Below are positions 18,101 to 61,707 of a DNA stretch of 64,000 nucleotides, piece by piece. Both the position numbers and the translations under genes were made by a program. Source of the DNA: Sphaerolaimus hirsutus (lineage: Eukaryota > Nematoda > Chromadorea > Monhysterida > Sphaerolaimidae); NCBI GenBank assembly GCA_964036195.1, contig OZ038451.1:18376747-18440746 (forward strand), given 5' to 3'. Below the pieces are notes generated by a model, which saw only the letters and a program-made list of their open reading frames with translations, searched no databases and had not been told where the DNA came from. The first letter of the stretch is position 1, and every line of letters starts with the position of its first letter.

Positions 18101-21100
18101 TTCCAGCGGCACCCACCAATGAGCGGCTGCAATCTGCGCCGCCAGTCGTTCATCCGCTCGCGCACGAGCGCCTTCATGGGCGCGATGTAGACGCACTTGG
18201 CGGTGTCGTCGGCGGCGAGCGCGCGCAGGATGGCCAACTCGGCCGCCACCGTCTTGCCGCTGCCCGTCGGCGCGCACACCAAAGCGTTGCTGCAGGGGGG
18301 GGGGCGGAGTTTGTGAATGGAAATCACCACTTACAAAGGTATTCAATGGTTGCACAGCCATTGTATGACTACAGTATTTCCTCGAAATACCCCCAGGGGG
18401 TTTATTTTTTCAGAAACTACAAATTTTGAGGGGGCTTATTCGAGGGAGGGGCGTTTATTATTTCCTCATCTCGCTCAGACAGGGGGTATTTCAAATGGGT
18501 ATTTAGAGGGGGTAATTCACGGGGGCATTCAGAGGATTCATAATAATACTGTAAATAACGGCAGTCAATTCTGCCTGGCGTACCGGTCAGTGTGATACAG
18601 ACAGTGGAATATCTGCGTCTGCACCGCGTTGAAATACTCGAAGTTGTACAGTTGGGCGAGCTTGGGGTCGCCCAACGCGGTGGCGATGTGCAGCGGGCGC
18701 AGATTGAGCAAGTCTGCGTGGGGTGAAAATAAGAATAGCCTACATTTTCTGGCGACTAAAATGTGCAAGAACCCGAAATTGGCGATTTAAGATTCTGGCT
18801 AATACTACCAGTCTCTGCTGAGAATACCATCTAACCAGGGATCAAACTCTACCAAATGTACAATTATAAATTACACTTTTCATGTCTTTGCACAACTACT
18901 GGTATTGAAAAAATTGAGTTTTGTGTGCCATGACTGGCAACATGCCAACTACAGTGGAAACAGCCCAAAGGCACTGACCGGTGTGCCTGGAGTGCTGCTC
19001 TGGCAGGTGCATCTCGTGGAAGCTGACCGGCTCGCGTGTGTCGCACCCAAGCCACCTGCGTGCCAATCGCGTTTTTGTTATTGTGTTGTTTTAATAAAAA
19101 TAAAAGAAAAACAAAATGAGATCAGGAATATCAGGCAATTTATACCGGGTAAAATGCAAACGAAAGTATTATCGGAAATTTTCCATTTGACACTTTACAT
19201 GACATTTGAAGAGTGGTGTCTGACGTCTGGCATTATCTTTTCCAGGGTACCTGCCTACAGGGCACGTACAATTTAAGGTGCGCATCACCCGACATCGCGT
19301 AAACCCCGCCCATGCAAATAAAAAAATGTACAACCGTACCAAAACAAAACAAAAAACCCAACCTCTCAGCGAGCACAGCCACAATATACTGACTGGGCAG
19401 GTGTTTCTCACTAATGGGAATGGTGAACTGGAGATGCTGGGGCTCCCTCCTGTCCACCTGGCGCTTGAACATGGCGAAGTACTCGTGGTGGTAGATGTAG
19501 TTGTCGTCGGGGTTCTCCACCCAGATGTACCACGGCTCAACCGCTGATTTGCCCAGGAAGCGAGAATCCCATTGGTAGTCCGCGCTGGATAGATTGGTAA
19601 AGAGTTTTTTGAAAATCGATTTTTATGCTGCACGATTTTTTTAAATGAGAATCGACTTTTTTCAAAATTGCACATATTTTTCTGTGAAATCATCTCGAAG
19701 ATGAATACAGATAAATACTTCACGCCATGATAAGTAATAGCTATTGAACTACCATGTCTGCCGTGGTCGTATAATAATCGTACAGTAACGGAATAGGACA
19801 AAATGGGCTATTTTCGCTTTTTATAAATTCATGAATATTTGACAATTTTGTCGGTGAAAACCAAACCTTCCTCTTGAAAAAAGAGAACTATCACACATCG
19901 ATATCGAAGAAATTATCGTTCCAACCCTACAACAGCATCGACACGGCACACGGTAAACTCACGTGATGGTCAGGTTCACTTGCAGTATGGTGCGCGTGAT
20001 CGGCCGAACGGACACGTCCAACTTCAAACGCGGCATGTGTCGCGCGGCCGTTATCACCGCGCGCCCATCCACCCTGCGTGCAGTGTGGCGCTGTGTGCGA
20101 CCGACCAGTGTAGCAGTTGCAGTGTTTCACCACGGGAACAGTCCTTGGCCGTGTAAAATGCCAAATGTCATGCAAAGTGTAAAAAGTCATATAGTAAAAT
20201 TCCCGGTAAAATATCAAACGCGTTTGCCATTTTACCGGGAATTTTACAGGACATTTTACACTTTGCAGACATTTTACAGGACATTTTGCAGGGTCTAGGA
20301 TTGACATCACAGTAGTACCTGAGCGCGTGCGACACGTCTGCGGCGTCCATGTCGAGCAGCTTGTCGATGCTCCAGCGGATGGCGTTGCTGCCCGCCAGCA
20401 TGTCCAGTTTGTGCAGCGTGGACAGGGGCACGCAACGCTCCGCCAACTGGCTGCAGGTTGGGACAAAGATGGGTAACTTGTGTGGGGGCAGCGAAATTGT
20501 TTATGAAACAAAATTTATAAAAATTTTTTTCTCCTTGTGTTGTAAACGATACATATCCTCAAGTTGTAGTCTTCCAAATTGAAATATTTTCAAAATAAAT
20601 TTTTACAAATTCAAATTTTTATCTAGACCGTCGTTTCAAAACTTTCGAACTTTCTCAAACCAGTCACTATAAAACTCCCTCCTCCCGGACCCAACCCAAA
20701 TAACAACCATCTCACTTGAAGGGGTGTCTGTGGGGCCAGCACTGGCGCTCCAGCGCGCGGCACAGAGTCAGCAGCGCTGCGGCGGCCTCCGCGTACGAGT
20801 GAACCAGCGCCATTTCGAACAAACCGCGAGCGATTCGGCCGGCGTTCTGCGTGTTTTTTTTGTGTTTATTTTACCTGGGTCCAATTTTACAAGTTTAAAA
20901 TTATAGTTGATTGTCAGTGAACGAAATTCACTCATGTATCAATTCAGCAAGCGACAAGTATCACGCAACAAGATTAGTGGCAAAAGTGAAAAACGCAAAA
21001 TTATTTTGATGAAAAACAAAATGTCATTCATCCAGTGAGATAACCACATGGCCACAGCTTTAAATCACGCAAAATCCACTCTCCTCAACCCACCTGCACC

Positions 21101-24100: not shown

Positions 24101-27100
24101 GATTCAACTGAGCGCGCACAAAAAGATAAGTGTAATTCAGCCAGCGCACTGCCTCCTCCACGTTGGTCACGGTACCGAGCACGATCTCGGCGTTCATGTT
24201 GTCCGCCAGCTGCCGCATCAGCTGCGACTCGATTGGCGCCTGCTCGTGCGTAGAACATTTCGCGACATTTTGTAGAAAAAAGCAGAACATTTACTTTTGT
24301 AAGTGAGATTTTTTCCTACATTTTTTTTGTGTGGATACCTAATTGATACAGATTTATGAAAAACCAACCCAATATAAAATATTCGATAAAATACAAATAA
24401 CCAGCACTCTACCTGTCTGGTGAGCAGCGACAAGTATCGATAAAGTCTGTCGTGGCCAGTGATAATCACCCCCTCGCCGGTAGTGTCGTATTGTGGCCTG
24501 CCGGCGCGGCCGAAAATCTGTGACAGAATTTAACTAATTGCACAGGATTTTTGGGCAACCTGATCATTTTACACACGCTGAATATTTAGAGTTGTGTCTG
24601 ATTTCAAACAAAACGAATAATTACAGACGGAAACAGTACGGAATCGGTTTGCCCGAAAAACCAATCGAAGTGACAATAAATGTGGTAAAATGTAAAAAAT
24701 AAAGGTGTAAGTAGTAATTTAAGTGGTGAGTAAAGTGACAGGTAAACTTATAAGTGACAAATAAATTACTAAACGAAAATTTGAAACTTAAGTTATTTGT
24801 AAATTATACGTCCACCAGGTCAGTCTATAATTTCACTTGTCAAGGACCCACCACAAGTTTACTTATCACTTACCACTTCTCATCACACATCCACATACAG
24901 AATCACCCCCACCCACCTGCTGCACATCCAATATGCCCAAATCGACCATAGCCCCATGCTTGGAGTCATACACATCAGTGCCGCGTATGATAACCGCATG
25001 GGCGGGCAAGTTGACGCCCCAGGCGAGCGTGGCCGTGCAGCACAGCAGGCGGATGTGGCCGTCGGCGAAGAGCCGCTCGGACAGGAGGCGGTCGGCGCGC
25101 AGCATGCCCGCGTGGTGCACCCCCAGGCCCGAGGGGAACAGTTCCTGGCATGTGGGTAGCGGGGTGGTTTTTGATGGGTGTGATTGCGTGCGATTATTTC
25201 TTTTTCGAATGTTTTTTAATTCTCGAATTTTTGTCTGTCATTGATTATAAATTGAAAATCATGACAGTTTTGTCACTTCGCTGGCAGGGACGTAGCCAGG
25301 ATTTTTGAGCGGGGGGGGGGGCGGATTGTATACGGAGCTCGGCGAACGGGCCCCCCCCCCAAAAAAAAAATTTGACCCCTGTGGTAAAGGAATGGCGCCT
25401 TGGCGCCAGCGCCATTCGTAGGCGCGACGCCATGGCGCCATTGGCGCCAAATAGTGCTGTACTTGTATGTATTTTACATACATATACAGCGACGGGGGCG
25501 AATTTTCAGTGCTTTTTTGGTCCTAAACCACAGGTATAAGTAAAATATACTGTGCGGCGCTGAAATGCGCGCTTGCGCGCAAAATTTTTCCGGACTGGCG
25601 ACAAAATCGCTTTACGGAAGCACCATTTCGGGTATATTTTCTTGTCCGACCCGTGAAGGGGGGGGGGCCGCCCCCCGCCCCCCCCCCTGGCTACGTCCTT
25701 GTTCTGGTAATTCAGAAGCTGGAGAAAGTGCACCACCTCTAACTACAAAAAACAACCCCCCAAAAAACCACTCGCTGTCAAATACCCCCAACCCCCCCCC
25801 CTCCCCCAACCTGCAGCAATCGATTCCTCGACCTAGAAACGGCTTTCTTGGCAATGTGCAGCGAGTCGGTCTCCGCGGGCCGGAACACATCCGCCTCGCC
25901 GCGGTTGAGCGCCGCCTGCGCCAGCCACTGCGCCAGGCGTCCGGTAGCGTTGCGCGCGTGCACGAACACTAGCACCTGGGGGATTATTATGGAAGGGGGT
26001 GAGAGGGGGTGAATGGAACTGTGCGTGGATGTGAACGGCGAGCGCCCGAATACAAAAAGTTTCAGGCGCCTTGTGTGTTGATCAAGTTTGGCCAGATACC
26101 AACTGAAAAATATCACCCAATGTTGCACGGCACACTCAAATTTTCAATTGCAGTTCGAACACTTTTTCAAGGGCGGAATTCAAAAGGGTAGAATTAAAAA
26201 TGGGGGCAGAATCCAAAAACGTTCGAACTGCCCTCGATTTCAATTCCGCACATGAAACGTTCGAACACTTTGCACGATGGCGGAATTGCCCCGGTTGTGC
26301 ATGGGCGGAATTATTTCAGACAGGTAGGAAAGTGCAAAATGTCTGAACCGCCCTTGGAATTCCGCCTTGGCGGAACTCAAAAACGTCCGAACCGCCCTTG
26401 ACAATTTTGAGTGTGCAGTGCGCCATCTAGGCCAGAAAACATTGGGACACGTTCTAGAGGGTGGAATTCAGTTGATGTTTACACAAATATGCCATACGGT
26501 GAACTTCAATATCTTTAAAACAAGTTGATATTATAAAAAAAATTCTCTATTCATTTTTGAAGACAAAGCCTAGATCTACCTATAAAATTTTTTTCACAAA
26601 TGTGTTTGGTGACTTCAGCTCCATGTATACGTCCCTACCACATAATATTGTTATGAACAGTGTCATAAAACTTATAGAGCTGTGTATGACCAACTCTAAA
26701 AAACGTTATTTGAAAATATCCGGTAATTTCTGTACATACACAGACATCATCACAGACGGCAATATTTATCTTGACAAACACACTGCAATTGATCTTATCT
26801 ATACCATTTTAAATGAATCGTATGTAAATTTTGCAGGTTTCGTATTTCGACAACAAAAGGGGATACCTATGGGCGGAGCCTGTAGCCCCCTCTTATGTGA
26901 CATTACAATGTTGATGATTGAACGCGAGTTTGTTCGAAATGGTAAAAATAGACATTTAACATGTAAAATGGGACCGTTCGTTAGATATATAGATGACTTA
27001 CTAGGCTTTGTTACACCCAGCGTTGATAGTCTTGGGCTAATACGTGACATTTACCCAGCTGAACTACCCATAAATCCCACCCACAAAAATGATCACACAT

Positions 27101-30100
27101 GTGATTTTCTAGACCTAAGTATCAGCCTTAGACCGTTCATCCATTTTGAAGTTTACAACAAAGTAGATGCGTTTCCGATGAAGGTAATTCGCTTTACTTA
27201 TTTTGGAGGTAACCAATCCTCCAGATTGGGTTACAGTACCCTGTACAGTCAATTAGTCCGCATAGTTCGCTTATCAGCTAATTACAACTGTTTTTACATG
27301 CGTAAAATTCAGCTACTGAGACTTTTTCTAGATCAAGGATATGATAAATTGACACTACTAGAAACTTGTCTTAAATTTATGGTGAACTATGAGAACCTAT
27401 TGGCTGCACTGGGAGGACCTGATAGTGATGTTCAAATAGTTAGCATAAAAAATGAATTATGGCGCTGATCTATAAAAACTTTTAAATGACCATCTGGGTG
27501 GTTTTCTTACTCATTTTCTCCGGAAAATGGGTACGAAAGTTACCTTGGCGCCCCGCCAACTAATACTCGAAAATTTGAAAAAGTTGGCAAAAAGAAAATT
27601 CATTTTTCGATTTTATCACGTCTTACTAAATAATGTTGTTGCTATGTAAATATCTATAATACAGATTTTTAACGGTCACACACCATGCCGGGCGCGAACA
27701 GCAACGAGGCCAACAAGCGCACGAACAAGCGCAAGAACGGCGAGCGCGGCAACAACGCGGCCAACAAGAAAAGCAGAATCGACCAGCGTATCAACAGAGA
27801 ATTCGTTGACTTGCTGTATGACGAGCTGGACAAGCGTAAGGCGCGGCAAAATTTCAACGATCGACATGTGGTTAGCTAGCATTTTTCTAGTGTCGCTGGA
27901 CTATTTTGAGTGTCCCCTGGTGTCAGCTTTTTGACACAACTCGATGAGAGAATAGTGGTTTCAACAATATATTGACCTGTTGAGTAATGACACAAAAAAC
28001 CCCTTTCTACAGTTTGGAACCCTTTTACTCGACCCTGACTGCCTGCCAGTTGTAGTACTACCCGCCTCCATAGCCTGGTACACGCAACTGGCACAGTAAC
28101 TGACCTGCACCCCGCCAATGCTGCGACCTAGCATTTGGTATAGTTTGAGTCTGATATGAGTTTTCAGGTGGTCGTTCAGGGTGGGGCGGGGGGTTGTGAA
28201 TAGTATCGAGTTGACATTTACCAAGTGGAAATATGGTTTTTTTAAAAATATTATTAAATAAGACTTTTTCAGAATATTTTATTACATTAATATGCAGTAT
28301 AATCTGTGATATTTATTTGGTAAGATAAATAAGTGTTTATCATAACAACCTTCTCTAAAGGGCGTATCTCTTAAGTCCCATGGTGGAATTTTGTTTTTGT
28401 GTCCCAATGTTTTTGAAACGTTTTGTTATGATATGCAAATGGACTGTGAATTGTGATGGATATGTGAATTCATCCGGATTCGTGTGAATTTCATCCGAAT
28501 GTCGTAAAAATGCCACATTTTTCCGAAATAAAAATGTTCGAACCGCCCTTGGAGTTCTGCCTTGGCGGAACTCAAAAACGTTCGAACCGCCCTTGAAAAT
28601 TTTGAGTGTGCGGTGCGCCAATATGCATGAGCACCATGTGAAAAGACCATAACAAGTTCCAAATGTCCCAACAAACAATCAAGCTACAAGAAGAATTCTG
28701 ACTACTCAAAACAATTTATGGGAAATTGGGAAACCCTCACCAACTTGGTGGCCATCACGGACATACTTTAGAGCTTTCTCAAACGTCACTTCGTCCATGT
28801 TGGCTATCTGCTGGCCAGAGCCGCCCTTCACACCGATAAAACTGCCAAATAATAGTAATATTAAAAGACAAAAAAGTGCAAAAAGAAACTTGGCCCCGGC
28901 AGGGGTCGAACCTGCGACCTTGGGCTTATTAGACCCACGCTCTAACCGACTGAGCTACGAGGCCGGTGAGGAAACGCGCACACATTTGCGGCTACATTCA
29001 TCAGTACAGAATTGTAGTGAAACAGACGACAGTGAACCAACCTTCGAAATGAAATTTGTGAGAGAATTTGTGAAATGAAATTTGTAAGTTCAAATTTTTC
29101 TTTCGAAAATTATTCCCATACGAAATCCTATATTAGAACCAAACTATATTTAGAAAATTTTAGAAAAATTTGGTTTGTTACAAAGTCAAAAAATTCTAAC
29201 AGATTACCAATTGGCAGGGAGGGAAAAATTTACCGTAGTGTATCGCAATTACCGGTAATTGTTACAGTGAAAAATAAAAATCCAGAAAGAGATTACCGCC
29301 AATTTCATACCAGTACCAATAAAAAATCACCGGTAACAAATCGGTCAACTTTACCGCGCGTATAGTGTTTCGAATGGGGGGGGGGGTGGGCGGAGTCACA
29401 GAACGTCTACGGCACTCACGTCTGCGTAAGCGGCACGGGTCTGAAACGACCGTCGAAGAAGAACAGGCCCGAGTGCGGGCTGACGCGCAGAAAGTCGGCA
29501 ACGTTGAAGTAGTTGGGCAGCGTGGCAGACAGACCCACGATGCGGATGTACGACTGCTTCATTTCCGACTGCAATATGGTTTAGAAAATGTGACTGTGGA
29601 TAGTGCCAGATGGACATCCAAAAGTGCCCAGATTGCAATTTCTTCTATCATCTTGAGAAAAACTATAAATACCTAATTAAAAATGAAACCTAACTTAAGA
29701 AAATCGTCAATTACAAAAACACAAAATGTGCGGAAAAATTTGCTATCTATTTGTTACCATTATAATTCAGCCACTTTTGGAAAAACAACCTAGCATGTAA
29801 ATACATGGACCAAATTAAGGGGACGGCCCAGTTCCAACTTGTGACAAACAAAAATACAAAACAAAAAATATGTTAACAAATACTAACATTAAAACAACGA
29901 AAAGAACTTAGGTATTTAAATACATCACAATTCACAATATGCATGTATGAATTCATGTCTGTTGGAATTATTTTTGTGAAGATCAACAATCATTCACCCA
30001 ACCGTAACAAAACCCAAACCCCCCTACCTGTCTAAGCGTGCGGGCGACCAGCACCTCAATCACCGCGCCCCGATCGTCGTGCAGCAGGTGCACCTCGTCG

Positions 30101-33100: not shown

Positions 33101-36100
33101 AACGTATGCAAAACCAATATTTGATAAGAAAACCACTGTTTCAACAGTAAAATGCTGTAAAATGCAACTTTTTGTAAAACAATTCGAGTTTTTACCAACA
33201 AAAACTTGAGTTTTTACTAAAAAAACTCGAGTTTTTACCAAAAAACTCGTTTTTTTTCTTCAAAAAACACAAATAAAACACAGAAGTCGAGTTTTTTGTG
33301 AAAAAAACCCTCAAAACACAGATATCCATTTTTGAAAAACTCAAAATACAGAAAGTGTTTTTATTTTGAGAACTCACCCATCGTTGTCCGTGACCGCAAT
33401 GCATAGTTATTAAAAGAGCCGAACTTTTACATTTGACACTTGCACATTACAGAACGATGGACTGCCACCACAAACACACTAAATCGGTCAACACAATGCC
33501 ACAATTCCAACACAAAAATCCACCTACCCAAAAACACCATCTCTGAACTCAAACCCCACACCTGATGCGGTACATTTGAAGCGCGGTTGGCAGCGGCAGC
33601 GGCGGGCGGCTGCGCGGCAGATCGGCGCGACCGCCACTCGGACACGAGCTCGTTGCGCTGGTTCAGGATCTCGGCGAGCAGGTCGAACTTGTCCACGCCG
33701 AGCAAGTCGATCAGCTGCGTGGCGGATAAGGGTTGGTGGGGGGGTTATGAATAGTAAGATTAGGGATCGAGTGTGAAATAAAGAAATTTAGAATGTCTAG
33801 ACATTTTTTGGGGGAAAAGCAAAAAATCGCTTTTATTAATAAAAAAAACGTTTTTTTATTTTTCATGTGAGGCCGTTGAAAAAAGCGCTTTTTCCACCAC
33901 TATAAGAGATGAATGTTTTTGTGAGAATACACTAGCTACGGAGCAGTGGGAAAACCCCGAAGCTATTTCTGCTGACCATAAAAACACAAAAGTTGTCATA
34001 AGATGCTATAAAAACGGTTGTTATCTTTCAAAAAAAAATCTGATTTTTTCCATAGTCACACCCCACCCAGTCACCTCCATCTGCAGCTGGTCAGTGGTTC
34101 GGGAGGAAGCGAGGGCTGCGAACAACTGGCTGCACAGGGCGTCCACCTCCTCGTAGCACTTGCCCAGCTCCTCCACCACGCCTGCGCGCGAACAACGTGC
34201 CGTTTGGACATAAATTTGCAACGGGCACGAATTTACAGCGTGAAAATGAATTTGCAAATGAAAAGGGCATTTAAAAAACAACGATTTGTGCCCATGGTAT
34301 TGAGATTCAGGAGTCGCCAGGATTTGGATCCTTGCGAGTGTTCGGGTAGATCAGGGCCGTATCCAGAGGGGGGGCGGGGGGGGCTGCAGCCCGGGGGTGC
34401 ACTGATACGCACACGTGCCCGATACGCACATATGCCCGTTTTTTTCACTTGACACTTTTTCAAGTGATTTTCAGATATGAGTAAAGTGAAAAAAAGTTGC
34501 GCAATGACATTAGTAAACTTTTTTCACTTCACTCATATCTGAAAATCACTTGAAAATGTGTCAAATGAAAAACAGTGAAAAATGGCTATTTTTCACTGTT
34601 TTTTTTAACTTGACACATTTTCAAGTGATTTTCAGATATGAGTGAAGTGAAAAAAGTTCACTAATGTCATTGCGCAACTTTTTTTCACTTTACTCATATC
34701 TGAAAATCACTTGAAAAAGTGTTAAGTGAAAAAAACGGGCATATGTGCGTATCGGGCACGTGTGCGTATCAGGCCTGCCCCCTGCAGCCCCCCCCCCTTC
34801 CCGGGGCGAGACCCGAAAGTGACCGGAAAATGTGACTTTTTGAACTTCAGCGTAAAAAATTTTGCGCGCGAGCGCGCATTCTTCACCAGACATAAGGTAT
34901 TATCACCAGATTTGCTCCATGTGGCCGCAAATCGTTATAACTACACTCAATTTTGTACTTTTTTCTGTTTTGTATGTATATTTACATACATATACAGCGT
35001 TCCATGGCGCTGGCGCCAACGTCAATGGCGCCATTGCGTGGCGCCTACTAATGGCGCCAGCGCCATGGCGCCATTCCGCCACTATGTAGCTAAAATTTTA
35101 GGGGGGGCCCCCCCCCTCGCCGAGCTCCGTAAACAAGCAGCCCCCCCCCCGCTCAAAAATCCTGGATACGTCCCTGGGGTAGATAGTAATTCGGCAAATA
35201 GACATATTTATTTATCTACAGAAAAGGTACAAAATGTTGTTGCCTTCGCCGGGACTCGAACCCGGGACCTTTCACTAAGCGTGTGAATGCTCTGACCGAC
35301 TGAGCTACGAGGAGGCCACATTTTGTACCTTTTCTGGTGCCGCGACCGTGGACTGTGGTTCAAGCTACACTACACCTTGCTGGTATGCGACGTCAGCACC
35401 GTGAGGGCTATCTATATTTTCAGTTGAAAATAGTCGAAAATCCGCCATAAAGTATCAGAATTAGGTATTTTAGGGATAATAAAGCACAAGAAAACAGACC
35501 AACGAATGTGAGTTTCCACCGTTTGCCCGTTTGGCGACTGGCGTGTCTGTGGTCGTCGGCGCCCGCCGATGCCGACGCGGCCATCAATCTGTATCAAATA
35601 GTACATGTAAATACTTCGCGCCGCGCCATAAATGTCAGTGATCAGCTGGAATCATTTCAGGCATTCCTGAGTCTAATTTATAAAATAAGGATTCCAAAAA
35701 AACAAATCGCAAATGTTTTTAAGTGGTTTCGGATGTTTATTTATTATTTGTTTCACACTCGTATTTGTACCCGTTTATTAAGAGCTGAAGCTAGGTAGGC
35801 CATGGGATTTTACGCGAATGCCACATTTTTAAAACTAGCTGCTGCATCGTAACGGGTAATTTTTCCTCTTATGTGAACAAATCACATTATATCAGAAATA
35901 CCTCAATAAATAAAAAGCGCTTTCAAATAAATATCTATAAATAAAAACGTTTTCGTATTTACGTTATATTTGTGCCCCCTTTGTATCCCCTTAATGTTTG
36001 TATCCCCCCAATCCCCACCACCCTACAAAACCGCATCCACATACCAAACACAGAACCTCAAACACGCCTGAAATTATCATCTCGCTGATCTGCCGTGGGC

Positions 36101-39100
36101 GCAGTCGCACTGCTGCTCTGCGCGACCGGCGGCACGGCTGGAGCGGCCGGCGCGGCATGGTGGCGTTGCTGCCGCGCCGCCAGCTCGTTCAGCAAGTGCA
36201 CCGGCGTGGCGCGGCTGTCCAACGCTCGGAAGTCCAGTCTGCGACGGTGAAATTGAATGTGTGTTAAAAATGAAACTTGAAACTAAACTAAGCATTAAAA
36301 TGGGTGACAATTAACTTCAACAAAACTAATACAGCATACTAATATCTTTTTAAATTGCATACCTAGATCCAATGACATGCATCTAATTACAGCTACAAAA
36401 TACTAGTTTCAAACAGGACACAATTTTCAAACAGGACTCCATCCAAACTACCGTATTTCCTCGAAATACCCTCAGGGGGTTGATTATTTCGTCAGAAAAT
36501 TTGGAGGAGGGTCATTCAAGGAAATACGGTAGCACACGCCACTCACACTTGACTCTGCGTGGGCAATTCAATCTTCAACAAATCCCCAAACATTCTCTCG
36601 TTCAACTGCACGCCGCACTGGCTGCCCGGCTGCGCGTCGGCTGTGCGCTTTTGTCGCCTCGCCGCGGCGGCGTCCGCTTTGGGCTTGGGCCAGGGGACAA
36701 TCCCAGACCATGTAAAAGCCCTGTAAAACCCATGTCATGCAAAGTGTCAAAAGTCGTGTAAAATGCCCTGCAAAATAGCAAACGTACGTTTGCCATTTTG
36801 CAGGGCATTTTACACGACTTTTTACACTTTACATGACATTTGACATTTTACAGGACTTTTTACAAGGTCTGGGACTGGCACCTGAGCGACACGTCGCCGA
36901 GCATGGACGGCGTGGCGGAGAGCGCCTCCTTGAAGTACAGGGTGCCGGCAGTGTAGCGCACCTGGCACACGGCTTGCATGGCGCGTCGGTGAAGGGCAGA
37001 TGAACCGGTCACTGCGGGAATGATGGGGTTTTCAGTTTAGAATGAGTCGAGTTTAGGTGAACGGAGAATGGAAGGAGTGGAGTTTATGATGGAAGAATTT
37101 ACACTCCTTTAGTTTTAATGGGAAAGGTGAAATGTAGTTGTGAAAATGTGGCTGCTTTAATAAAGATAAACGCAAAAACGGAGAAACTTTTATATTTCTC
37201 TTTTTTTTTTTCTCACACTTTATTTCTCACTTTTATATTTCTCATTTTATTACTATGTTTTAAAATGATTTTTTTCTCAGAAGAACAATTTTTAATAGTT
37301 GAAAACACATGGAAACATATGGAACGACCCGGCAGGTGATTTTGTCACGAGAAACGAGAATGTTGGTTTTTGATTTTTTAATCATATTTGATGACACTAG
37401 ATTTTTAAAACAGGATTAAATGGGGACTTTCATTCCAAAAGTTAACATATCCAGATTTTTCGATTTTTCAAAATCGCATTTTAAAGTTTGGCGCTGGCCC
37501 GGCAGCGCCATGTTTGGGCGACAAAGCTTGCCCTGCACTTTTCAGATATCTCGGACATTTGTCTACAATTTTTGTGTCCCTAAATTTTGTCGGCTGGTAA
37601 ATTTTTTTTGGAGTTATGTCATATTTTGTAAACCACCCAAAATAAGGAGTAAATTTGAAAATTTGAACCTGAAATGTAAATAACTTCCTAACGGTGCATC
37701 GCAGGGCAAAACCAATTACACCACCGAGAAGCACTTTTCCAGAAGTACACAAACCTAAATTTTCAGATCTATATTCATACCCGTACTCGATTTATAGACC
37801 AAAATAAATTTGGAAATTCACGTATGCACATTTGGAAATGAAACTTCATTTTGTATGGGAAATCCGGCCGGCTCTTCGCGAGCGATCCGGAGCACGCGTG
37901 CACTTTTGGAAATGAAACTATTTTTTGGATATGTGCACTTATGAAATGAAACTCTGGTGGCCCGCCATAAATATGTGCACTTACGAATAGGGTTCAAACG
38001 GGACCAGTTTTTCGGACCGGGACCGGGACCGGGACCAGAAATTTTCTAATGTCGGGACCGGGACCGGGACCGGGACTGGGGGGTCGGGACCGGGTCCGGG
38101 ACCGGGACTGGCTTTTTTCAATTGTCGGGACCGGGACCGGGACCGGGACTGGGGGGTCGGTCCCGGGACTGGGATTTGCCGGACCATGTACCGGGACCAC
38201 AGTCTCGTTTGAACCTATTTGTACATAATATCCGGCCAATGTTGTTCCACACACCTCCACTGTGTGAAGAACCACGCTCAATATGTATTAGCCCTTTCTT
38301 GGAACATTATTCAAGTAATGCCCCCCCCCCTCAATTTTGGCCCTATAGTTAAGAAATAGAGCCATTTGTAGGCGCCAACGCCATGGCAGTATTGGCGCTG
38401 GCATTGGCGCCAATGTCTACTATCTAGGTATCTTTATATACCTATAAATATTTCATACTAGAATCGTGTTGGGGACCTTTCTAACGCTGTTTTATTACAG
38501 AAAAATACATGTAATCATTGGGTGGGTTATTGCGCGCTCGCGCACAAATTTTTTTAGATGTGCCTCCATAATCTTTAGAAAAGTGGCATTTCTGGCAAAT
38601 TTTTTGAAAAGGTCATTAAAAATACATTTTTCTTCATCCCTTGTCGGGACCACTACAAAATGCCCGGACCGGGACCGGGACCGGGACTGGGTGGTCCGGA
38701 CCGGGACCGGGACCGGGACTGGCTTTTTTGAATTGTTGGGACCGGGACCGGGACCGGGACTGGGGTGTCGGGACCGGGACCGGGACCGGGACCGCCCCAG
38801 TCCCGACTTTTTGCCGAACCATGTACCGGGACCGCGGTCCCGTTTGAACCCTACTTACGAAATGAAAGTCCTGTTTTTCATAGGGGATCTGAGATGGATA
38901 TGTGCACTTTCCATATGAAAATTGTGATTTTTCTGAAAAACGGTACCACTGTATCTCGGGAACGAAATGGACTATAACACTGATTTTTTTACCAAAATGG
39001 GCAGAATGATACGTGGATGTCGAATCCACAGCTAACTCGATTTTTCTGGATTTGGCGCTTGTGAACTTTTGGAACGGAAGTCCCCAAATCAGTTTAAAGA

Positions 39101-42586: not shown

Positions 42587-43291
42587 CAGAGTTGTTAAAA
42601 TACTGGTATTTTTGGAAAGTGAAAGTGTAAGTGTAAGCGTAAATACACTTTCCAAATTTTAAGTATGGATACTAAAAGTGTAAGGTATTTTGAAATACCC
42701 AGGAAAGTGTAAAAAAGTGTAAGTGTAAAAAATTTTTTAGAAAGAGCTCTCACTGTTGAGCATTAGAACACCACTGCTTTCACATTTAGATCAATTTATC
42801 TTTCATTTTCATTCATTATTTCACATTTTACTGCTAATTATGAAACATTTCAGACTGTAACAAATGTCGTGGTATGAAGTTGCCTAATAATGGCACTTTT
42901 TCAGTGTTGATAATTTACTGATTAAGCAATGCAATACACTGTTTAAATGCAAGAATGTACATGCAGCAAATATCAATGCAAAAGCCAGTCGACTTTGTGT
43001 CCAGCTGCTGAATTTCAATTGATTTTGTCCTTTTTACAAAAGTATGATGAAACTGTAGAATAGTTACCATGAGTACTGTTCAAAGGTATATTTCAAAGGT
43101 ATTCAAAGGCACATATGCCATATTTTCTACATTCAATGCATAACTGCGTGGAGTGTGGTCATTATGACATGTTGTGTACTTTAACATGTTGTGGAATATA
43201 ACATGCCATCATGGGAATATTACATGTTGTGGAAAGTGACATGCCAAAAGGTGAAAGTAACATGTCAAGCGTGAAAGTAACATGCCACAGC

Positions 43292-44153
43292 TAGGGTTCA
43301 AACGGGACCAGTTTTTCGGACCGGGACCGGGACCAGAAATTTTCTAATGTCGGGACCGGGACCGGGACTAGGGGGTCGGGACCGGGACCGGGACTGGCTT
43401 TTTTCAATTGTCGGGACCGGGACCGGGACTGGGGGGTCCGGACCGGGACTGGGATTTGCCGAACCAGGTACCGGCACCGCTATATTGTTTGAACCTTATT
43501 GGTATGTAATATCCAGCCAATGTTGTTCCACACACCTCCACTGTGTGAAGGACCACTCTCAATGTATTAGCCTTTTCTCGTAACATTATTCAAGCAGTAT
43601 TCCATTGCCATCTTCACTTGAACTTGTGAATATATGATGAAACGCAATGTACGCAGGATTTTTTTGGGGAGGGGGGGCGGCGCCAGTTGTAGGCGCCAAC
43701 GCCATGCCAGTATTGGCGCTGGCGTTGGCGCCAACATCTATAATATAGGTATCTATATATACCTATATTTCGTACTAGAATCATGTTGGGGACCATTCTA
43801 ACGTTGTCACATTATGGAGAAAATACATAGTAATTATTGGCTGGGTATTTGCGCGCTTGCGCGCAAAAATTTTTCAGATGTTCCTGCAAAATCGCTTTAG
43901 AAAAGTGTCAAATCTGGCAAATTTTTTTTGAAAGATACGTTTTTTTCCATCCCTGGTCGGGACCGCTATAAAATTCCGGGACCGGGACCGGGACCGGGAC
44001 TGGGTGGTCGGGACCGGGACCGGGACTGGCTTTTTTAATTGTCGGGACCGGGACCGGGACTGGGGTGTCGGGACCGGGACCGGGACCGGGACCGCCCCAG
44101 TCCCGACTTTTTGCCGAACCATGTACCGGGACCGCGGTCCCGTTTGAACCCTA
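43292..44153. mobile_element. hAT element, GGGACC type, innermost of the nest
   Basis: Target duplication GCCACAGC at 43284-43291 and 44154-44161. Tips TAGGGTTCAAACGGGACC and GGTCCCGTTTGAACCCTA. The body is closely similar to 37988-38853 in the same orientation, including GGCGCC units and TGCGCGCTTGCGCGC with AAAAATTTTT (about 43849-43875). Confidence 0.92.
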
Positions 44154-44799
44154 GCCACAGCCCAAAGGTGAATGTAACATGCAAAGCGTGAAAGTAACAT
44201 GTCATGCACATGCGGTCACAAGTTGTAACTCATGCATGTGAAAAAGTTATCAGTGATTGATCATTATCATCATGTTTGTCAAGGTGTGAATTCTATGCAC
44301 GTTCACGTGCGCAAATCAAACCCACACCATGTCGATAAATAGACCACAAATTGTTAATCGATACAATCTGTTGTTTTTTAGTTTGGCAAATGGTTTTTAG
44401 CTTTATCCTTGTGACGCTGTTAAAATGATAAGGATTATAGCTTGTTAATATTATTCATCAATATAAAAATATATCTTTCTCTAGACAGCACAGCACACAC
44501 AAGTTTGTAAATATATTAGTACACATGACTAAGAAGATAAGAAAAATAGCAACAAACATTCACAATACATTCAATGTAAACTTCAAAGCAAAATATGCAA
44601 GTAACAAGTAAATTTTAACAAAAAAGCAAGCTGTGCAAAAAATTTCCATCATAACAAAAAATACTTCGTATTTTCCAAAATGACATTTCACGAAATTTTT
44701 GATTTTAGAATTTTTCTAGAAAAAATTGGATGTTTTTCTAGGAGTTAAATAAAAAGTCTGAAAGCAAAATAAAATTTTGAAATTAGCCATCGTAAATGC

Positions 44800-47500: not shown

Positions 47501-50500
47501 ATGCGCACCGGCGACAGCTGCGGCATGAACGACACCGACACTTCGCACAGCAAGGGAACGTTGGATCTGCGGCGGCACAAGACACCCCCGCTGCAGCAGG
47601 ATACATGTGAGTGCGCTGCGCATCTGCTGGATGGGAAGCTGATTTGGGGTAGCCTTATATCCGGAATGTGTATTGCCTTATTTAATGTGGTTCACTCCGA
47701 ATGGCAAAGGCTGAGCGTGTCGAACTAAGTAGATTTTTCCTGATCCAATTCCCCATACACTGGTCTCATCACTGTACAGCCGGCGGCGGCGACGCGTGGC
47801 TGTCAGGCGGCTCGCTGTCCACATCGCTGAGCTCGACGTCGACAAACGCGCCGGGCAGCTCGCCGCCCAATAAAAACAGCAGCTGCAGCGCCGGCTCGGA
47901 GCACATATCCGCACTTCATGGATTACTGGACAACTTGGGTTGGTTTTCAAATTTAACACTACTTTTACTGTGCTTCAGCGGTGTTACTTATTACTTGTGG
48001 TGGTGCCAGTCCCAGACCCTGTAAAATGCCCTGTAAAATGTCAAAGTGTCAAAAGTCATGGAAAATGCCAGTTACTCCACTGTCACGTATTCCACTACAT
48101 TCTCACAGCGGCTGCGGCGGCGCAACGGCACCGGCTTTCCAAGTGCAGTCCGGCTCGGGCCCCGAGCGCCGCCACGACCGGGCGGCAGCAGCAGCACAGC
48201 CCGCGCGACGCGCCGCGGCACGGCAACGTGGATGGCGGCGCCGCGGTCGCACCGAAGTTCTCCATCGCGCACATTCTCAGCGCCGATTGTGGGCTGAATG
48301 TGAGTTAATTGACACTGTATAGTGCGTTTCGAACCAGGCTTGTGGTAGAAAAATATGTTTATGTAATTGAAAGCATTGTTACCGCAACCACTAGTTTACT
48401 AATGAAATTTTAAAAATTTAGCTGACACATAAATTTTTCAAAACGCATTTGAGTTAACTGCAATGATTTATTTTTATGCTTCATCTACTGTCTTTGACAA
48501 ACCCCTTTTTTCCAGTGAACTCAAATGCCATTCAAAGTTGACTTTGAGTTCACCATATTTTTTTACTGGCAGGTAAACTAGTGTGTGCATGCAGCGTCAT
48601 TTCATCGCACCCAATACATTCCCATCGCAGCCAACAACCGGCCGTTCAGCCGACAACTCGCCCAACAGCATGCCGCCCTCGCCGTGGCCCACCAAGCCGA
48701 CGGCAGTGTGCAGCGGCGCTTCCCCCTCGTCGAGCCAGCCGTCGCCGCTCAAGTCGCCGCCGCTGGGCCCCCCGCCGCCGGCCGGCCTGGCGCTGGCGCT
48801 CGCGCTGCACAACCACGGCACCCAGGCGCTCTTTGCCGCCGCGGCGGCAGCGCAGCACCAGCAACAGTTGCAGCAGCAGCAGCAACAGAATCAGCTGCAG
48901 CAACAGCAACAGCAGAATCAGCTGCAACAGCAGCAGCAGCAGCAGTTGCAGCAGCAGCAGCAACAACAACAACAACAACAACAACAACAGCAAAAGCCAG
49001 CGCCAACTTCGGGAGGTGGCGCATCGAACTCCATGTTCCCCGGAGCGTGGATTTTCTGCACCCGCTATTCGGACAGACCTAGCTCTGGTCGGTTTGGGTT
49101 GCCTTTATATTTATTTTCCCATTTAACCCCACCATTTCTGTGTGTGATTTTACTTTTCTTAAATTTTTCAACCTCAATTTGCCTCGCGATTTTATAATTC
49201 AGTCATCGATGTGGCGATTTTGATACTATTAAAATTAGGGAAGAAAACATGTAAATATTTAGATGGCTGCGCTGCGCTCAGTCGATGTATTGGGTGGGTA
49301 TTTTTTTCTGCGCCAAAATTAACAGACGACAGTCTGATATATTCGCGGTTATTTTTGCTCACACTATAGTCCATGCGTATAGAGTAGTCAGGCAAAATTA
49401 GTAGATTTTACTGAATTTGTGCACTTGTTTTGCCGCCGAATTTACACGCGTCGCCGCCGTGAATTACTTGCGTTTTTATGCGTTTACATTTTACTGTAGT
49501 TGAAGTGTGGCCCCTCCGCCAATTTCAAAGGAATTGAAACGCTGATATCTATCTTCATCAATGATTTAATTGTAAATATAATTGCTGACAACTGAATTCA
49601 TCCAACGAAATGATTATTTTTTAGATGGAAATCGTGCCATGCTGCACAGAGTGGTTAAAGTTACCTATTGTTGGAGATTTCTATTAAAAAAGATGAGTAG
49701 TTGCTGTATCACAAATCGTTATAGTATAAAGGTGTACCTTTTTCACGTTTTTGATCACTATCCGGCTGGTGAGACTATATTTTCGACATGGTGTTAGACA
49801 AATGTTACATTTGTTACTATAAACACTATTTTTTGCTAAACTGTCAAGATATGATAACAGACTTTTTCAATTACCTAGATACCCAGACCCCTAGATACCA
49901 TTTTTATACAATACCCACAAAAAGATTATCGACATGGTTAAGCGGCGTTTACACTGCATTTTGTGCCGACAAAAAAAGAAGACAAAAAGTTTCATAATTC
50001 CACAATAAAGTTCCATATCTGCAAGACAAAGCAGTGAAGTATACTCACTAGTTGAGTGTACATACATGCCAATTTGCAGATAATTCGGGCATGTCGTTCA
50101 AGACTTAAAAACAAATTACACTTGTCGGTTCGGTTTTCGTTTTGAAACCGAACCGACAAGTGTAATTTGCTTTTAAGTCTTGAACGACAGGCGCAAATTA
50201 TCTGCAAATTGGCACGTGTGTACACTTAACTAGTGAGTATACTTCGGTGCTTTTCTTTGCAGATATGGAACTTTATTACAGAATTATGGAACTTTTCCAC
50301 TCGTTTTTTTGTCGGCACACGAAACCGTGTAAACGCCGCTTTAGCCAAATTTTCCTATGGATACCTCAACCAAAGGTATCAATACACCTACCTAAAATAT
50401 TAAAAATATCAGTCGTAATTCTAAACATGGGCCACACTGTAATTTTCGCTATAATACAGCACTAAAACTGCGATCAAGTGAATTATGGTAAGGGACAAAA

Positions 50501-59500: not shown

Positions 59501-61707
59501 CGTCGCCGCAGTTAGCCGCTTTGATTGGCCACAATGACCGCGCGGCCATCAAAGCAGCCCCCCCCCCCCGAAGATTGCCGCGCGTGGGTGCAAAGTGGTT
59601 CGCCGCTGCCGCCGCGCTACGGTAGCGCGGCAGCATGCAGTATCTATTTGTGCAGTGGGGCGAGCGCCAATTGGGCAGACTGTACGTAATTGAATCAGTG
59701 GTAGCTTTGTTCGTGCCGCGCTGCGGAACTGTTGATGTGGGGGCTCGTTTTGCAAAGGGTGGTGAAATGCGGGTGAAATTGAGTTTATGTGAAATTGGTG
59801 GGAATTCAATTTGTATGATATGTGACCAAAAATAATGAAAATTTATTGGGTTCGGGCCAAACAATTTCGGGTAGCTAAAATATGTAAACATTTTTGGCTG
59901 GCTCTATCAAGCTACAACAGAAAAAATTCACAACAGCAAAATCAAACAGCAAATGTCATAAAACGGCCACAAATAGACATATACAGTAACTGAGTTGTAT
60001 TTAGCTGTAAATTTGCAATACCTGTGTTCCTCTTTTGTCGAATTTGTAATATTTTGTTTAGAACGACGTTTCAAGCTGTTATTTGGCCCATGTTATTATC
60101 ACACATCACACAACTGATGAAGTGATGATACCATTCATTTCTCATTTACGCGGGAATTGCCGCCATATTAGAATTTCGGTGGTAAACTTCTTTGATGTAA
60201 CGTTTGCACGGGGACAAACGATTCAATCATTCAATTTTCTGCGCAACAACTGCAAATAGCCGCGACGCGACGTTTCTAGTGTGTAAAACCCAAATTTTCC
60301 AACTTGAGATAAACATCGAAATTGAGCCGAAACTGATAGCGATCTACTGCGCTACGAATTTTGGCGGCGCGGTAAAAAAGCGAAAATATGTCGTCATTTT
60401 CCATGGGTAAATAGATGCCGCGTTTAAACTGTCGGCGGCGCAATTCATGTTTTCTAAATTTGTTCAAAGGCGGCAAATGCAAATTGATGTATGTAACTGT
60501 ATAATGAGAAACGACTTTGACAAAAGTTTCACTGCACATTAGTGGTTGAATTGAATGTTTTTAGCAAACTTAATGTGATGTGGACGTTGTGTGGAAATTG
60601 AAAAGTGAACTTTCCCATGAACATGTATTTATTTACCATTAGTGTAATATAGGTATTCACTTCTTGTAACGATGAATGGGGTTCTCTCTCGCTTTATCAG
60701 AATGAATACCTATAATTAATTAGGAGGAAGACAAACTATGCAGACCCCGCTAAATATATAGAATGACTATAAAAACCCAATGATATTGTAAATATGTTCG
60801 ATTTCTCATAAAAACAATGTTACAATTCCGTCAGCGGCACAATTTAATTTTACCTCAATCCGCTGATATGGAAAGCTGCAACAAACATGTATCACCACTT
60901 GTTGGGCAAAAAAATCATCACACCCCTCCACCCCCAGGACCCCGTTGCCGTCGCGTGAAGCGCAAACGGCACGAGTCCACGTCGAGCGGCGCCGCGTCGC
61001 AGTGCAACAACGCGCAGCCGACCGCCGCGCCCGTCGCCAGTCCCGCTGCGAGCGCGACGGCGGCCGACTGCGGCGGCATGGGATTGCTGTCGCGCGGCGA
61101 CGAGAAGCGGCCGCGCACCGCCTTCACCGCCGAGCAGTTGGGCCGGCTCAAGTCCGAGTTTGACCAGCACAGGTGATTGTGTTTTGAGAGGTTGATGTTT
61201 TGTGAATTCAGGTTTATGCGATCGATTGATTAAATCGATATGAAGCGATCATGTTTAAAAAATTTATTTTAAAATTATTTCTCATGTTTACAGGTACCTC
61301 ACCGAGAAACGCAGGCAGGAACTCGCACACGAGCTGGGGCTAAATGAGAGTCAGATCAAAATTTGGTTTCAGGTGAGAGTGCATTTTTGGGAGAAGCGTT
61401 CTGTTATGGTTACACCTATTTTTTGATGCAAAATATTCTCCAACAAAAAATCCCGTGGGTCATTCTTCATCCCACATTGTAAGGAGTTATCAAATCAAGA
61501 GTTTTTCCATCAGAATTTCCATGGAAATTCGCTGCCATTCTACATATAAATCACATTTTATCAACTAAAAATTCAAATCATCAATTCTACCCGCAGAACA
61601 AGCGGGCAAAGATAAAAAAGCAGAGTGGACAAAGGAATCCCCTGGCGCTGTCGCTCATGGCCCAGGGCCTGTACAACCACGCCACCATACCCGTCGAGGC
61701 TGAATGA
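47501..61707 (+). CDS. en: Engrailed-class homeodomain transcription factor
   Basis: Nuclear repressor that sets segment polarity and neuronal identity. Seven coding exons in phase: 47501-47606, 47780-47938, 48109-48299, 48631-49087, 60938-61172, 61294-61372, 61597-61707 (TGA), giving 445 residues. Exon 3 ends with [12 protein letters not shown], the EH1 Groucho-binding motif. Exon 4 has Ser/Pro-rich sequence, a long glutamine tract and [15 protein letters not shown] (EH2, Exd/Pbx contact), completed by exon 5. Exon 5 leads into EKRPRTAF, the start of the homeodomain. Exons 6-7 carry helices 2-3 with [15 protein letters not shown] (Gln50, Asn51) and EH5 ([15 protein letters not shown]). The start is the first in-frame ATG, with a second Met nine codons on. 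The two homeodomain introns interrupt Arg24 and fall between Gln50 and Asn51. The tail after EH5 is short (ATIPVEAE). Confidence 0.94.
48864..48994 (+). repeat. en: CAG/CAA repeat coding polyglutamine in engrailed
   Basis: About 44 codons, almost all CAG or CAA, broken by Leu and two Asn-Gln-Leu units, encode the glutamine tract ahead of EH2. The end is a run of CAA. The mixed codons reduce slippage, but length polymorphism is likely. Confidence 0.9.
49941..50340. mobile_element. 400-bp foldback element with TTA duplication
   Basis: Inverted arms of nearly 200 bp (AGCGGCGTTTACACTGC outermost; AGTGTAAACGCCGCT-like mirror), meeting at a tight loop near 50128 (GAACCGACAAGTG / CACTTGTCGGTTC). 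Flanked by TTA at 49938-49940 and 50341-50343, in keeping with a PIF/Harbinger-type MITE. Lies in engrailed intron 4. Confidence 0.75.
51459..51606. mobile_element. 148-bp hAT MITE, TATCGAATATCG type
   Basis: Tips TAGGGTTCAAACG and CGTTTGAACCCTA, identical to the GGGACC type, but the body is an array of ATCGAATATCG units. Target duplication TTAGTGAC at 51451-51458; the other copy is split by the next element and resumes at 52830-52837. Confidence 0.9.
51611..52825. mobile_element. hAT element, GCGCCA type
   Basis: Target duplication CCTATTAG at 51603-51610 and 52826-52833. Tips TAGTGATGGAAAAAGCGCC and GGCGCTTTTCCATCACTA, with arrays of AGCGCCAAGCGCCAAAAGCGCC at both ends. No transposase ORF. 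It inserted across the boundary between the preceding MITE and its target duplication. Confidence 0.92.
56272..56543. repeat. CCGTAATTGCTTGAATTATTG inverted-end element
   Basis: Left tip TACCGTAATTGCTTGAAT, right tip ATTATTCTAGCAGATACGGTA, flanked by TA, with GGGGGGAATTATT units inside. Same family as 21356-21907; located in engrailed intron 4. Confidence 0.6.

Follow-up and report, generated by a model that had tools for sequence, protein, structure and literature searches.

The ASCC3 locus and its foldback element

The 64,000-nucleotide window, which is the whole stretch of DNA analysed, carries ASCC3 on its minus strand. Exons of this gene are recognisable by similarity to human ASCC3, and exons at about 34.2-33.6 kb match the N-terminal part of the human protein (E 9e-8). 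Upstream of these exons, an open exon is interrupted by a foldback MITE. The features are as follows, where | marks a splice junction.

9494-32465, minus strand: ASCC3 exons identified in a tblastn search with the human protein
36882-37011, minus strand: upstream half of the interrupted exon, including the 5' duplication, with the acceptor TTCCCGCAG| just before it
36882-36884, minus strand: 5' target-site duplication, CAG, on the exon side of the predicted donor
36694-36881, minus strand: foldback MITE of 188 bp, its ends set by 39 distinct complete copies; the T end GTGCCAGTCCC is at 36881 and the G end ...GATTGTCCC at 36694
36721-36881, minus strand: predicted intron of 161 nt, CAG|GTGCCA...GGGTTTTACAG|, from frame and translation
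36694-36720, minus strand: part of the element predicted to be coding, 27 bases; with the CTG duplication it gives ten added codons
36691-36693, minus strand: 3' target-site duplication, CTG, which differs from the 5' copy at W
36549-36690, minus strand: downstream exon half, beyond the 3' duplication and ahead of GTGTGAGT
5139-5309, strand not given: element relative, 79% identical
20148-20306, strand not given: diverged element relative between two ASCC3 exons
48002-48069, plus strand: half element with an intact tip GGTGCCAGTCCC; an inverted partner was looked for and not found

On the minus strand, the layout reads ...GTGTCGCT[CAG]|GTGCCAGTCCCAGACC...GGTTTTACAG|GGCTTTTACATGGTCTGGGATTGTCCC[CTG]GCCCAAGCCC..., in which the bracketed triplets are the target duplication. 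Zero bases are left over between either duplication and the open coding sequence. When the two halves are joined without the element, they form one open 272-bp exon with GC1, GC2 and GC3 values of 0.60, 0.52 and 0.80 (p about 1e-4 by shuffling). The first-pass annotation placed the element inside ASCC3, and a split open exon is what was found there. The exon halves flanking the element had no detectable similarity to ASCC3 and no match in Pfam or PDB, so their identity as ASCC3 comes from their position upstream of the matching exons and from the frame. Searched against the genome, the ASCC3 peptide matches only in two halves, one on each side of the element, and the matches listed include no copy free of the element.

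The element was initially described as an inverted repeat of 180 bp. Its inverted arms are real, as the element and its duplications fold into a single RNA hairpin that runs from duplication to duplication with an energy of -135.8 kcal/mol, compared with -46.9 ± 4.1 kcal/mol for 200 shuffled controls (z -21.7), but its size is 188 bp. This extent also changes the relationship between the element and the predicted intron. The two do overlap, but the intron does not protrude by four bases and lies wholly within 36694-36881. Similarly, the portion predicted to be coding is not 23 bases of the element but 27, which together with the 3-base duplication make 30 bases in frame.

The reading frame was also held to force both splice sites. 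This is correct for the acceptor, because the AG at 36721 (...TTTTACAG|) is the sole AG within the element that keeps the frame without a stop. It is not correct for the donor, because the GTs at offsets 0, 6 and 18 of the tip all keep the frame at this element; the donor at ASCC3 is therefore preferred for its CAG| context and is not forced by phase. The predicted donor is without the usual +4 to +6 bases. In the ASCC3 copy, the distance from TTTTACAG| to the end is 30 nt instead of the usual 31, with one base missing between its repeats, and it is because of this missing base, relative to the canonical element, that TTTTACAG| is usable in frame. The ASCC3 copy has CTG as its 3' duplication and would use the internal AG, giving a predicted product with 30 additional nt. 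Several ordinary ASCC3 acceptors in the window are also C-rich.

Other features lie near the element or elsewhere in the window. The next intron contains an inverted repeat at 36448-36532 (CTACCGTATTTCCTCGAAATACCCTC), whose arms are 88% complementary and which is apparently unrelated to the MITE family. An open frame of 321 amino acids at 26503-27468 (plus strand), located between ASCC3 exons, has the look of a Penelope-type reverse transcriptase, and another at 60784-61176 (plus strand) ends in the start of an engrailed-type homeodomain, both as judged by eye. Simple repeats of the GGGACC/GGTCCC type read as open frames at 38050-38850 and 43280-44215. A tRNA-like stretch at 35240-35330 (minus strand; GTAGCTCAGTCGG...GGTTCGAGTCCC), also recognised by eye, could be a tRNA-derived repeat.

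The family in the genome and its target site

The tip GGTGCCAGTCCC occurs 3745 times (1882 + 1863) in the 348-Mb genome, compared with 13 occurrences (7 + 6) of the reversed word. In the window, five matches with at most one mismatch were found against 0.09 expected. Both counts greatly exceed what chance would give and bear out the earlier observation that the tip is common to relatives of the element. A genome search with the ASCC3 element gave 3842 first-look candidates, 40 of which were scored to yield 80 match rows; among these listed matches, the copies other than the query are 84-89% identical. The majority sequence built from 46 copies measures 192 nt, and the identity of copies to it has a median of 0.931 and a lowest value of 0.615. 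The end words of the family are GGTGCCAGTCCC and GGGGGCAGTCCC, flanked by CWG. In the terminal repeat, the T end starts with GT, while the G end starts with GG (GGGGCAGTCCC) and reads ...CTGCCCC.

The base to the left of the element equals the base to its right in 85% of the 39 distinct complete copies. A C stands before the W base in 37 of the 39 copies and a G after it in 37 of the 39, which gives a duplication of CWG. This duplication was read from the copies before the literature on CWG was searched. A target duplication of 8 or 9 bp, of the hAT or Mutator type, was rejected because the base-match matrix shows CWG alone. At ASCC3, the two duplications are unequal at W (CAG and CTG).

A CWG target duplication characterises NuwaI, a group of PHIS-superfamily transposons known from animals (Han et al. 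2015, PMC4482050). NuwaI terminal repeats are 12-61 bp long and usually start with GGG, and most of the autonomous candidates have a DDE transposase and a Myb/SANT protein (PMC4482050). The family described here resembles NuwaI in its 5'-CWG-3' duplication, the G-rich start of one end of its terminal repeat and its animal host. Its G end starts with GGGGCAGTCCC and its T end with GTGCCAGTCCC. The duplication and the G-rich end suggest that the family consists of non-autonomous, NuwaI-like (PHIS) foldback transposons. There are 163 DDE_Tnp_4 matches in the genome. No autonomous partner with the family ends was found at the three DDE_Tnp_4 loci examined, and the sole tip-like word at these three loci was one match with two mismatches (in L111), which is not a convincing tip. 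The DDE_Tnp_4 transposases are present in high copy, with many near-equal scores and stops inside the match, and one copy (L109) is without MITE tips.

Copies inside coding sequence

Seven NNS triplets precede 368 T tips, compared with 26 T tips preceded by NNW triplets (14:1). Likewise, seven NNS triplets follow 296 G ends, compared with 79 for NNW (3.7:1). The expected ratio of NNS to NNW at a GC content of 0.435 is about 0.16:1. GC-rich non-coding flanks can also raise this ratio, and therefore periodicity and homology were tested too.

Three samples of copies were used. Sample A comprises 39 copies taken without regard to their flanks: 13 complete copies from the first 28 tip loci of contig 1, and the copies from 26 of the 30 loci most similar to the ASCC3 copy, with the ASCC3 copy included. 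Sample B (L059-L088) comprises 27 complete copies out of 30 T tips with a coding-like upstream flank. Sample C comprises 18 complete copies, obtained from 20 G tips that looked coding-like by eye among the 100 listed of 232 G-tip matches; many of the 232 belong to another repeat (CCACTTGYGGAACC...), so this count is not used. One place is present in both A and B (L011 is L059), and the 84 rows are therefore 83 places. In sample B, which was selected by its left flank, the unselected right flank is GC3-periodic in the same frame (S 0.58/0.51/0.75).

For the Pfam scan, the joined flanks of each copy were read in the frame with the best periodicity, one for each direction, provided that the peptide was long enough. 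This gave 45 and 45 peptides in B and C together, and in A 37 peptides with a 5' T end and 33 with a 5' G end. A Pfam domain match running across the joined junction was found in 17 of the 83 copies. With the T end 5', sample B gave six such matches (OSCP1, Cyclin_N, Xan_ur_permease, Cation_ATPase_C twice and Fer4_ETF_QO) and an additional G-patch match just beside the junction, while sample C gave three (tRNA-synt_1d, Adaptin_N and tRNA_anti-codon). Sample A gave seven (Neur_chan_LBD twice, Glyco_transf_92, FLYWCH, COMM, Zip and Vinculin), and the COMM, Zip and Vinculin matches are below Pfam's curated cut-off. FLYWCH domains are also found in transposon-derived genes. When the gene enters at the G end, junction matches number 0 out of 45 in B and C and 1 out of 33 in A (E1_dh).

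Protein alignments run through the junction in the same way. The Na,K-ATPase peptide is gapless through ...SLAYEQ|AESDIMKR... (E 5e-37), and the arginyl-tRNA synthetase (RARS) peptide is gapless through ...YDTSDL|AAVRHR... (E 9e-27). A VMAT peptide is aligned across ...MGYL|VDLRHV... (E 2e-25). A GBF1-like peptide had no match when PDB was searched. In the genome, the RARS peptide is matched solely as two halves around its element, and the GBF1-like peptide has one match, over its right part; no element-free copy is listed for either. RARS is an essential gene, and because it is split by the element, the element is very probably removed from the mRNA.

In two cases, a pair of family members splits the same region. 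One pair splits a single nicotinic-receptor ligand-binding domain (L034). The other pair (L073 and L074), less than 1 kb apart on contig 1, splits a Cation_ATPase_C region.

Among the 11 junction matches in samples A and C, which were unselected for orientation, 10 have the T end on the 5' side of the gene (two-sided p 0.012). The ratio of T end 5' to G end 5' is 7:1 in A and 3:0 in the G-tip sample C. Sample B was chosen by an upstream codon pattern that favours the T end 5', and it was therefore excluded from this test. With only the matches above Pfam cut-offs, the ratio is 7:1, which is not significant alone. The orientation bias points to the GT of the T end as the donor. The tip was earlier credited with a ready-made 5' splice site, an idea that calls for refinement: the transposon itself opens with GT, and the CAG or CTG before it is duplicated target and not element.

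The composition of the duplications bears on the other splice site. Where the flanks are codon-like, CAG makes up 60 of the 3' duplications and CTG 33, compared with 41 and 50 for the 5' duplication (p 0.012; first 100 of the 296 and first 100 of the 368, respectively). Beside AT-rich flanks, the corresponding counts are 29:35 and 15:10 (p 0.24). Duplicated flanks were dropped before counting (7/100 and 9/100 codon-like, 1/79 and 1/26 AT-rich), as was a 14-copy repeat in the 79-row G-end list, and the AT-rich lists were counted by hand. Because both duplications are identical at the start, the 3' excess of CAG suggests selection for AG at this place. Such an excess beside codons is also what is expected if CCCCCAG| serves as an acceptor. 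A 3' duplication of the CAG type (CCCCCAG|) can be an acceptor that leaves the codons unchanged. Out of 37 copies labelled as coding (some by eye), 23 have a CAG 3' duplication and 14 a CTG. A net-zero GT-AG solution exists in all 23 CAG copies; it is given by the layout and does not count as independent evidence. Copies with a CAG 3' end include L069, L073, L074, L101 and L103, and those with a CTG 3' end include L060, L071, L080, L090, L102 and L107. The sequence fits splice-site supply by CWG|GT and CCCCCAG|, as do the orientation and 3' CAG biases, but the copies with 3' CTG are without an AG at that place.

The CTG copies fit less well. In three of the 14 (L080, L102 and L105), the element offers no GT-AG pair that is in frame. 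In RARS (L090), which is of the CTG type, the sole in-frame GT-AG options add 81 or 99 nt, in VMAT (L107), also CTG, the smallest addition is 54 nt, and in the remaining CTG copies it is 9 to 66 nt. The TTTTACAG| site, 19 or 31 nt from the end, was rejected as a general acceptor because it shifts the frame with the tip GTs at 0, 6 and 18 in the canonical element. The sites at 19 and 31 nt compete with the acceptor at the duplication, and by eye, without a statistic, no difference in the intactness of their AG was seen between CAG and CTG copies. In canonical CTG copies, use of a GC-AG pair (GT|GCCAGT with TTTTACAG|) would, by hand calculation, add 21 nt. Possible answers for the CTG copies are a GT...TG intron, this GC-AG intron and a hairpin-directed route. 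It is conceivable, if rather doubtful, that CTG copies in conserved genes such as RARS are exactly spliced through a non-AG 3' site (GT...CCCCCTG|) with the aid of the hairpin. If this were true, the difference between CAG and CTG would be a natural genome-wide experiment in which canonical 3' splice sites evolve from a target duplication. One clear copy has its G end 5' to the gene (L057, dehydrogenase E1, E1_dh), and the GT-AG pairs that keep its frame would add 6, 18 or more nt.

Proposed intron formation by the family and comparison with known systems

The NuwaI-like foldback family very probably acts as an introner. This role was initially proposed from the single ASCC3 locus, and the sequence of the wider family supports it: 17 of 83 copies split a Pfam domain, the T end is 5' in 10 of 11, RARS and ASCC3 are matched only as halves, and the 3' duplication is biased to CAG beside codons. 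The introner claim is stronger for the family than for the exact splice sites of ASCC3. By landing within the coding exons of various genes, this small hairpin-shaped transposon may recently have supplied the genome with new introns.

In the proposed mechanism, the element would insert at CWG and duplicate these three bases. The upstream duplication and the first two bases of the element would form the donor (CWG|GTGCCAGT). When W is A, the other end and the downstream duplication would form a C-rich acceptor (CTGCCCCCAG|), and splicing would take out the element and one duplication, which would exactly restore the mRNA that existed before insertion. When W is T, another 3' site would have to serve; in ASCC3, where W is T, the spacing that is shorter by one base would put TTTTACAG| in frame and add ten transposon codons. 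The long hairpin would bring the splice sites together, and insertions that are in the wrong orientation or are not removed would be lost by selection.

Partial exonisation through internal sites, such as CAT|GTAAAA at +68 with TTTTACAG|, would yield proteins with 20-30 extra residues, and in-frame, stop-free solutions of this kind exist in several copies (for example L060, L062, L081 and L084). It is nevertheless unlikely, as the pre-insertion frames of RARS and Na,K-ATPase are gapless across the junction and have no natural loop there. In addition, an in-frame stop occurs within the first 66 nt in 21 of 41 copies labelled as coding (partly by eye), which rules out the +68 donor for those copies.

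Transposons may also be removed from RNA by an excising process known as SOS splicing. Hairpin-directed excision of a similar kind, which would ignore splice sites and bypass the ordinary spliceosome, would suit the near-perfect end-to-end hairpin, the CTG copies without an in-frame GT-AG pair and the E1 dehydrogenase copy with its G end 5'. Such excision should be indifferent to orientation and to W, yet the T end is 5' in nearly all junction matches of samples A and C, and the enrichment of CAG at the 3' duplication is confined to codon-like flanks. It is therefore judged quite improbable; a literature search for hairpin-directed excision of transposons found nothing.

It is also most unlikely that the MITE merely inserted into an ASCC3 intron that was already there. 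Insertions of that kind do no harm, and relatives do sit between exons (for example at 20148-20306), but at ASCC3 there is no leftover sequence beside the duplications and the halves join as one GC3-periodic frame. The flush layout also recurs in the 17 Pfam-supported copies, which would hardly result from chance landing at intron edges. Equally remote is the idea that these are null copies of the genes without splicing, haplotype-specific insertions or pseudogenes, since, although some flanking sequences are duplicated in the assembly, the RARS and ASCC3 queries match only as halves around the element, the GBF1-like query has a single match, and the biases in orientation and in 3' CAG call for selection on function.

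The introner reading of the family matters because the origin of introns has long been debated and reports of transposons that make introns cover few animals (PMC9860276). With its thousands of tips, its CWG target and its split donor, and with 3' ends of both an adapted (CAG) and an unadapted (CTG) kind, such a family would allow the insertion, splicing and adaptation of new introns to be measured in one animal genome. It would also tie intron gain to the PHIS/NuwaI group of transposons. A search of the introner literature, which partly covered subscription journals and preprints, recognised no description of this family among the papers listed, and a prior description is possible.

Foldback MITEs generally have long inverted arms, internal sub-repeats and no coding capacity, and the family described here is like them in all three respects. 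Ordinary MITEs are not known to be concentrated in coding exons, and in this the present family is unlike them. The NuwaI passages of Han et al. make no mention of intron-making (PMC4482050), the role proposed for the family described here.

Introners derived from DNA transposons are short, and many possess inverted ends together with short duplications of the target (Gozashti et al. 2022, PMC9860276). They are enriched in genes and at GC-rich motifs, they supply or recruit splice sites, and some add codons, as in Aureococcus, where an introner adds 12 bp (PMC9860276). The present family matches them in the features that can be tested from sequence. In contrast to those introners, its donor is split between the CWG duplication and the first two bases of the element, and the addition predicted for its ASCC3 copy is 30 bases. 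In that survey, splicing itself was measured (PMC9860276); in the present family, it is predicted from sequence. In the animal part of the 2022 survey, introners appear in only two groups (PMC9860276). For Fritillaria tunicates, another animal lineage, which has non-canonical introns, introner transposons with weak splice sites have been discussed as a cause of splice-site divergence (PMC13326754). In contrast to Fritillaria, the 5' GT appears to matter in the present family, and only its CTG copies hint at a non-AG 3' site.
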